This document shows positions 2,401-49,355 of a stretch of 64,000 nt of DNA, piece after piece. Made by a program: the position numbers and the translations under genes. This DNA is from Chloroflexia bacterium SDU3-3. GTDB taxonomy: Bacteria > Chloroflexota > Chloroflexia > Chloroflexales > Roseiflexaceae. Every line of letters begins with the position of its first letter. The first letter of the stretch is position 1. Under the pieces are notes generated by a model, which worked only from the letters and a program-made list of their open reading frames with translations, made no database searches and was not told the DNA's origin. The DNA lies in the NCBI GenBank assembly GCA_009268125.1, contig WBOU01000005.1:124001-188000 (forward strand), written 5' to 3'.

Positions 2401-5349
2401 ATGTCCGTCCTACCTGACACCGAGCCTCAGCGCGATTCGATGGAGAACCGCCCAAACCGCATCCCCAGCGCCACCTACCGCGTGCAGATGAATAGCGCCT
2501 TCACCTTCGCCCAGGCCCAGGCCATCGTGCCCTACCTGCGGGCGCTGGGCGTGAGCGACCTGTACGCCTCGCCGATCTTCCGCGCGCGGCCCGAGAGCAC
2601 CCACGGCTACGACATCGCCGACCACAACAGCCTCAACCCCGCGCTGGGCGGCGAGGATGGCTTCGAGCAGCTTTCCGCCGCCCTACGCGAGCACGACATG
2701 GGCCTGCTGCTCGACATCGTGCCCAACCACATGGGCATCGGCGAGCCTTCCAACACCTGGTGGATGGACGTGATCGAGAACGGCCCCTCCTCCAAGTACG
2801 CCCGCTTCTTCGACATCGACTGGCACCCCGTCAAGCGCGAGCTGGAGAACAAGGTGCTGCTGCCCATCCTGGGCGACCAGTACGGGCGTGTGCTAGAGCA
2901 GGGCGCGCTGCAGGTGCGCTACGAGGATGGCGCGTTCTGGCTGCACTACTACGAGCACTGCCTGCCGCTCAACCCCCGCAGCTACACCAACATCCTCGCG
3001 CCCCAGCTGGATGCGCTGGCCGAGCAGCTGGGCGACGACCACGCCGACCTGCTGGAGTACCAGAGCATCATCACCGCGCTCACCAACCTGCCCGAGCGCA
3101 CCGAGACCGACCAGGCCCGCGTGGCCGAGCGCCACCGCGAGAAGGAGATCATCAAGCGCCGCCTGGATGCGCTGTGCACCAGCTCGCAGGCGGTGCGTGA
3201 GGCCGTGGCGCGCAGCATCACCATGATCAATGGTGCGGCGGGCGACCCGCGCAGCTTCGACGCGCTCGACGACCTGATCGGCAGGCAGGCCTACCGCATG
3301 GCCTACTGGCGCGTGGCCGCCGAGGAGATCAACTACCGCCGCTTCTTCGACATCAACGACCTGGCCGCCATCCGCATGGAGGATGAGGAGGTCTTCCAGT
3401 CCACCCACCAGCTGCTGCTGCGCCTGCTGGCCGAGCAGAAGATCACCGGCGTGCGGCTCGACCACCCCGACGGCCTCTACGACCCCGAGGGCTATTTCCG
3501 GCGGCTCCAAGAGGCCTTCGCCATCGCCCAGATGGGACAGGACGCCGAGGGCATCGCCTGGGCCGAGCACGAGCGCCCGCTGTATGTGCTGGTCGAGAAG
3601 ATCCTGGCCCGCAACGAGCCGCTGCCCGAGAGCTGGCCGGTCTATGGCACCACCGGCTACGATTTCCTGAATGCGGCGGGCGGCGTGCTAGTGGACACAT
3701 CCGCCGAGCGGCGCATCAGCGAGATCTACAGCGACTTCATCGGCAGGAAGATCGACTTCGAGGATCTGGTCTACAACACCCGCAGGCAGATCATGCGCAC
3801 CTCGCTGGCCAGCGAGCTGACGGTGCTGGCCTACCAGCTCAGCCGCGTGGCCGAGCACAGCCGCTACTATCGCGACTTCACGCTCAACTCGCTGCGCGAG
3901 GCCCTGCGCGAGGTGATCGCCAGCTTCCCGGTGTACCGCACCTACACCGTGGCCGCCACCGACACGGTGAGCGAGCGCGACCAGCAGGTGATCGACCAGG
4001 CCCTGGCCCGCGCCCGCCGACACAACCTGGCCGCCGAGCCGACAATCTACGACTTCATCCGCGATGTGCTGCTGCTGCGCTACCCCGGCATGCTGGATGA
4101 AGCCGCCCGCGAGTCGCAGCGCCAGTTCGTGATGAAGTTCCAGCAGCTCACCGGCCCGGTGATGGCCAAGGGCCTAGAGGACACCGCCTTCTACATCTAC
4201 AACCGCCTCACCTCGCTGAACGAGGTCGGCGGCGAGCCGCGCCTGTTCGGCACCACCGTGGCCGCCTTCCACCGCCAGAACCACGAGCGCCTGCGCACAT
4301 GGCCGCTGGCCATGCTGGCATCCTCCACCCACGACACCAAGCGCAGCGAGGATGTGCGCGCCCGCATCAGCGTAATCTCCGAGCTGCCCGCCACATGGAA
4401 GACCCTACTCGGGCGACTCAGCCGCCTGAACCAGCGCAAGAAGCGCGAGATCGACGGCAGGCCCGCCCCCGACCGCAACGAGGAGTACCTGCTCTACCAG
4501 ACCATCCTCGGCACCCTGCCCATCGAGCCGCTGGATGAGGCCGCCCTGCGCGCCTACACCGCCCGCATCAAGGCCTACATGGTCAAGGCCATCCGCGAGG
4601 CCAAGGTGAACACCAGCTGGCTCAACCCCAACAGCGAGTACGATGACGCGGTGCAGGCCTTCGTCGAGGCCACCCTGGCCGACAGGCGCTTCATGGCCCA
4701 GATCCGCGAGCTGCACCAGCTGGTGGCCCACTTCGGCATCTACAACAGCCTCAGCCAGACCCTGCTGAAGCTCACATCCCCCGGCGTGCCCGACATCTAC
4801 CAGGGCACCGAGATGTTCGACTTCAGCCTAGTGGACCCCGACAACCGGCAGCCGGTGGACTACGCTCTGCGCACCTACCTGCTGGATGAGCTGACGACCA
4901 TGGATGTGCCCGCCCACGATCTGGCCCGCACCATCAGCGACCCGCGCGACAGCCGATCCAAGCTCTTTCTGGTCGCCAAGGTGCTGGCCTTCCGCGCCGC
5001 GCACCCCCAGCTCTTCCAGGGCGGCAGCTACGCCGCGCTGGCTGCCACCGGCACAGCCGACGAGCACGTGGTGGCCTTCGCCCGCCGCGCCGAGGACCAG
5101 ATGGCGATCGCCGTGGCCCCCAGGCTGCTGGCCAAGAAGCTGGGCGAGGCCCGGCTGCCGCTGGGCGCGGATGCCTGGGGCGATGACATGCTGGTGCTGG
5201 CCAGCGCCCGCGCCGGGCAGCTCTTCCGCAATGTGCTCACCGATGAGACCGTGGCCGCCGTCGAGCGCAGCGGCCAGGTGGGCCTGCCGCTGGCCCAGGT
5301 GCTGGCCAGCTTCCCGGTGGCCCTGCTCGCGCGCGACGAGCGCAGCTGA
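2401..5349 (+). CDS. treY: Malto-oligosyltrehalose synthase
   Basis: A 982-residue GH13 enzyme that isomerises the reducing-end alpha-1,4 bond of malto-oligosaccharides to the alpha,alpha-1,1 bond of trehalose. Family marks are ATYRVQM near the N-terminus, [11 protein letters not shown], the nucleophile Asp354 in [13 protein letters not shown], the acid Glu399 in LVEKIL and Asp645 in [14 protein letters not shown]. The protein is longer than many TreY proteins because of an extended region before Asp354. The ATG at 2401 is chosen, with GAGAGG upstream; the frame stays open to 2278, but that would put a terminator-like hairpin inside the gene. First gene of treY-treX-treZ; cytoplasmic, makes trehalose from glycogen. 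Confidence 0.95.
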
Positions 5350-49228: not shown

Positions 49229-49296
49229 GGTGGGTTCCTCCTCACGGCGACTTGGTAGTTACATCCACCCGACCTCTATGCTCTTTTTAAACATCA

Positions 49297-49355
49297 CGAA
49301 TGCTTGTTCTGTCATCGGGTATCAGGAGTATACCAGAACAAGTGTTCGCAGTCAA
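49297..49355 (-). promoter_or_regulatory. Promoter with LexA-type box in its spacer and a second downstream site
   Basis: On the minus strand TTGACT (49350-49355) and TATACT (49327-49332) are separated by exactly 17 bases that contain GAACACTTGTTC (49336-49347), the GAAC-N4-GTTC pattern of Gram-positive-type LexA boxes. A second site, AGAACAAGCATTCG (49297-49310), matches the first (AGAACAAGTGTTCG on the other strand) at 12 of 14 bases and lies just past the predicted start. Confidence 0.7.

Follow-up and report, generated by a model that had tools for sequence, protein, structure and literature searches.

Does the gene for a 177-residue membrane protein in Chloroflexia bacterium SDU3-3 belong to the SOS response, and if it does, what would such a protein do after DNA damage? 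The gene lies on the minus strand of the 64,000-nucleotide stretch of DNA that we analyzed (hereafter, the window). SOS control of cell division is known from a few phyla, in which unrelated proteins carry it out. In the literature that we searched, we found no work on the LexA regulon in the Chloroflexales.

The promoter and its product

On the minus strand, positions 49355 to 49327 read TTGACT-GCGAACACTTGTTCTGG-TATACT, and the 17-base spacer contains a palindrome of the form GAAC-N4-GTTC (GAACACTTGTTC) that starts two bases 3' of the -35 hexamer (Table 1). This is the arrangement that an earlier reading of the window from its sequence alone had described. The second site that it had noted just past the predicted start is also present: GAACAAGCATTC lies ~38 bp downstream of the first palindrome, at about +11 to +22 relative to the predicted transcription start. 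Set against the first site as read on the plus strand, it differs at 2 of 14 bases (AGAACAAGTGTTCG / AGAACAAGCATTCG).

Table 1. Features of the 177-residue gene in the window, and loci of related LexA-boxed genes
Feature	Position or loci	Strand	Basis
-35 hexamer TTGACT	49350..49355	-	sequence; TTGACN kept in orthologs
Putative LexA operator 1, GAACACTTGTTC, in 17-base spacer	49336..49347	-	sequence; 51 of 64 homologous promoters alike
-10 hexamer TATACT	49327..49332	-	sequence and homologous promoters
Putative LexA operator 2, GAACAAGCATTC	49298..49309	-	sequence; Roseiflexaceae paralog-A promoters similar
Shine-Dalgarno AGGAGG	49237..49242	-	sequence; GGAGG upstream of most orthologs
Paralog A, 177 residues	48695..49228 (stop included; ORF 49228-48698; ATG 49228)	-	
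Paralog-B operon	L139:5777-8055, L145, L147, L260-L267		
Small LexA-boxed cassette	L135 ~4760-5180 (G000 C9:107148); L115-L125, L242-L244		

The N-terminus of the predicted protein is short and basic and contains several arginines; it is followed by one predicted membrane helix (residues ~31-67) and a beta-rich C-terminal domain that resembles FG-GAP and includes a DLNKDGTRDL loop (DxNxDG). The single helix is seen both in the sequence and in an AlphaFold2 model built from five sequences, whose low confidence (pLDDT 53) allows it to be read for secondary structure only. In Pfam, the only match was to FG-GAP_3 (PF13517), and this was a weak one (18.7 bits, below the cut-off of 26.9); there was no match to LysM. 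The second member of the family in the source genome (paralog B) matches the same model at 30.7 bits, which is above the cut-off. For the window protein, a profile search of the PDB and a search of NCBIfam gave no match, and PHROGs gave nothing meaningful and no match to a phage family.

Conservation of the box in its promoter

The sequence-only reading considered the box, its spacing, and its duplication to be hard to explain by chance. The bare motif does not bear this out: exact GAAC-N4-GTTC occurs 25 times in the 6.76-Mb genome versus 93 times for a reversed control, and in the window we observed 15 matches with at most one mismatch versus 10.75 expected. Because the box by itself is not enriched, we rejected its bare count as evidence. 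When we built a matrix from the lexA and recA sites only, the window box ranked third of 64,000 positions, which is no better than the maxima in shuffled sequence, so the matrix alone cannot tell the window box from chance.

The claim does hold for the box in its place in the promoter. Boxes with a correctly placed -35 and -10 gave 9 matches in the source genome versus 1 for the control, and most of the 26 Roseiflexaceae genomes likewise had low control counts. It also holds across homologous promoters. The protein family is present in all 26 Roseiflexaceae genomes that we searched and, across the class, in 84 of the 158 genomes, which include nearly all of those from the order's four families (f1-f4); there are usually two paralogs per genome. 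We scanned 64 upstream regions from these four families for boxes with at most two mismatches, using the spacer of the best promoter, and found the box inside the spacer in 51 of them, mostly two bases past the -35. Exact boxes were present in 39 of the 64 regions versus ~0.3 in shuffles; these promoters are kin, and the counts are not independent events, though they do span four families. By group, the box was exact in 15 of 30 regions from Roseiflexaceae (shuffled mean 0.13) and in 24 of 34 from the other three families (shuffled mean 0.18). That the box is a chance palindrome without function is hardly credible: the bare motif does lack genome-wide enrichment, but the position of the box is kept in four families and in both paralogs.

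The two paralogs have different arrangements. Roseiflexaceae promoters of paralog A, which is the type in the window, have a second operator 31-39 bp past the first, while those of paralog B have a single box. Some f2 genomes depart from this, with the operators of paralog A located 3' of the -10. Family members from f5 have no box, although f5 possesses lexA. In one genome (G009, L050/L144), the promoter, LexA box included, is intact, and ~170 bp of additional sequence separates it from the start of paralog A.

The motif at lexA and recA

The LexA of the source genome (C12:109243-109914) is, by its sequence, a cleavable one: it passes the equivalog cut-off of TIGR00498 with 185 bits, and the Ala-Gly, Ser, and Lys positions are present. 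If lexA and recA had carried a box of another kind, this would have spoken against the sequence-only reading. What we found at both promoters was the same architecture with a slightly degenerate box, and exact boxes in relatives. The lexA promoter reads TTGACA-taGCACAGTTGTTTctt-TATAAT and is followed by CTACATAAGTTC and GAACATACATGC, and the recA promoter (TTGTCT-ttagcGAACACTCGTGC-TATAAT) also has the box in the spacer. In 23 of the 23 Roseiflexaceae recA genes that we found, including that of the source genome, GAACNNNNGTKC lies directly 5' of the -10. The lexA promoters of the order retain operators of the GCACAAGTGTTT and CTACATAAGTTC types, and most of the f2 lexA promoters that we examined retain the degenerate pair. 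Exact boxes occur at lexA in L085 (GAACAGATGTTC), in g9 genomes (GAACATAAGTTC), and in L302, L305, and L306; at recA in four g9 genomes (L288-L290 and L292); and at a UvdE-type repair gene in G017 (L131).

In Bacillus subtilis and Mycobacterium tuberculosis, GAAC-N4-GTTC is well established as the motif of LexA (PMC3323433). Because the same motif is found at the genome's own recA and lexA, is exact in relatives, and is known from other bacteria, we predict with high probability that the box is the LexA operator of this group. Binding by some other regulator seems very unlikely, as the motif is present at lexA itself and at recA, even though those two boxes depart from a perfect palindrome. 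The only other LexA-type DNA-binding match in the source genome is a 223-residue protein (L021, G000 C1:345984) with a weak match to this domain at its C-terminus. We rejected it as a rival LexA-type repressor because it has no LexA cleavage domain.

A LexA that runs a programme other than SOS has been proposed for some cyanobacteria. If the same were true here, the membrane protein could be an envelope factor that is unrelated to DNA damage, and the boxed genes do include some for non-repair proteins (kinase, glyoxalase-like, and TPR). We consider this unlikely given the motif at recA in every one of the 23 genomes and the boxed UvdE-type gene in G017. Overall, the promoter evidence suggests that the window gene is quite probably under LexA/SOS control.

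Other boxed genes and repeats

The Ser/Thr kinase-like, TPR, and glyoxalase-like genes are each boxed in single genomes, and these boxes may be due to chance. In many genomes across the families, the box also accompanies a small cassette that encodes a ~95-residue protein (...EQRYNFLPRRF...) and/or a ~85-residue protein (...WFDDN.KKP...); neither has a Pfam or NCBIfam name above the cut-off. Another box (C9:118581) lies upstream of a sequence that looks like a tRNA. Separately, repeats of the form CTTGGNNNCTTGG occur at positions 2142, 9486, 13246, 13722, and 16724 of the window (8 matches to this form versus 0.12 expected), and repeats of this type are also found near other genes of the source genome.

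Linkage to genes for cell-wall proteins

In the source genome, paralog B (G000 C16) is the first gene of a three-gene operon with a LexA box upstream. The second gene encodes a membrane protein that is rich in proline and has a glucosaminidase-like domain (PF01832, just below the cut-off), and the product of the third has an M23 domain (PF01551, 2e-22). Representatives of all four families have this gene order together with the LexA box, and in L266 the glucosaminidase-like and M23-like partners are fused. In the M23-like proteins, the usual histidine of HxxxD is replaced by tryptophan in 11 of 11 sequences, and HLH is replaced by HLD in 8 of 11. Because of this unusual motif, the M23-like protein may have a regulatory and not an enzymatic function.

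Outside the order, we found a second lexA, a membrane gene, and a glucosaminidase-like gene running in one direction in two genomes (G098 C74, L307; and G089 C370, L308). Their promoters have the form TTGACA-a(GAAC-N4-GTTC), with an exact box, and the cluster is possibly an ancestral SOS operon. In the Chloroflexales genomes that we examined, the membrane gene is not beside lexA; in G044, the two are 2.6 kb apart.

The function is argued from gene linkage, and the window gene itself (paralog A) stands alone, outside any hydrolase operon. The sister genes are wired with cell-wall enzymes, and in two other lineages with lexA, so the family probably has a part in changing the envelope or division upon DNA damage. 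The proposal from the sequence-only reading that the product is a new damage-response membrane factor gains strength from this linkage, both to genes resembling those for murein hydrolases and, in genomes outside the order, to lexA; its more specific suggestion of a division inhibitor is a guess. For the membrane protein of the window, we put a role in the wall or in division at about even odds.

The module might instead serve lysis or peptidoglycan turnover, with SOS setting off lysis or the release of vesicles, and not act as a division checkpoint. An operon of glucosaminidase-like and M23-like proteins would suit that role, and in Pseudomonas, explosive cell lysis with links to SOS has been described (PMC4834629). 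But the M23 motif residues are degenerate, and the family shows vertical, order-wide conservation with no match to a phage family. A lysis module is therefore possible but doubtful, and we prefer a role in modifying the wall or division.

Proposed mechanism

We infer that in an undamaged cell, LexA would occupy the box between the -35 and the -10 and block RNA polymerase, and that the second operator, which lies a little beyond the transcription start, would assist in repression. Upon DNA damage, RecA filaments would lead LexA to cleave itself, and the gene would be expressed. Its product would be a single-pass membrane protein whose FG-GAP-like domain is probably extracytoplasmic, and it would most likely serve to change the peptidoglycan, or division, in the course of the SOS response.

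We propose that the core of the regulon comprises lexA, recA, the membrane family, the hydrolase-like operon, the small two-gene cassette, and, in some genomes, UvdE. More broadly, Chloroflexota might have an SOS envelope module of their own, in which an FG-GAP membrane protein under LexA repression, together with its glucosaminidase-like and M23-like partners, links damage in multicellular filaments to remodelling of the wall or to an arrest of division. This idea, which seems to us as likely to be right as wrong, would make the module evolutionarily unrelated to SulA, YneA, and SidA, and the operon of lexA, membrane protein, and hydrolase may be its ancestral form. For these bacteria, which are filamentous and in part phototrophic, the outcome is a testable operator and a candidate envelope factor of the damage response.

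Comparison with known systems

In Gram-positive bacteria, the known SOS inhibitors of division span the membrane once, and their genes are commonly beside lexA; two of them, DivS and SosA, do not have LysM (PMC6851548). YneA acts by blocking FtsW (PMC13396833). The family described here resembles YneA (B. subtilis), ChiZ (M. tuberculosis), DivS (C. glutamicum), and SosA (S. aureus) in its putative SOS control, and probably also in having a single membrane segment, as predicted, and a C-terminus that would be extracellular. The adjacency to lexA has a parallel in G089 and G098, but not in the family's own source genome. ChiZ is a reported wall hydrolase, and the family here is linked to hydrolase-like genes. 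On the other hand, YneA and ChiZ have LysM, whereas this family has an FG-GAP-like domain instead; SosA is smaller; and this family has two paralogs, one of which heads a hydrolase-like operon. Because the family has no LysM and we found no sequence relation to YneA, ChiZ, DivS, or SosA, we do not place it among the inhibitors of this type. By analogy, it plausibly works like YneA, SosA, DivS, or ChiZ, and not as a homologue of them.

The likeness to FG-GAP / VCBS repeat proteins (PF13517) comes from paralog B, which exceeds the Pfam cut-off, and from the weak match of the window protein. Those proteins form multi-blade propellers, whereas this family has a single, incomplete repeat attached to a membrane anchor.

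Finally, the predicted regulon shares with the Gram-positive LexA regulon its operator core (GAAC-N4-GTTC), the overlap of box and promoter, and the inclusion of lexA and recA. It differs in that the operators of lexA and recA are degenerate here, the position of the box within the 17-base spacer is nearly fixed, and the envelope targets are specific to this lineage.
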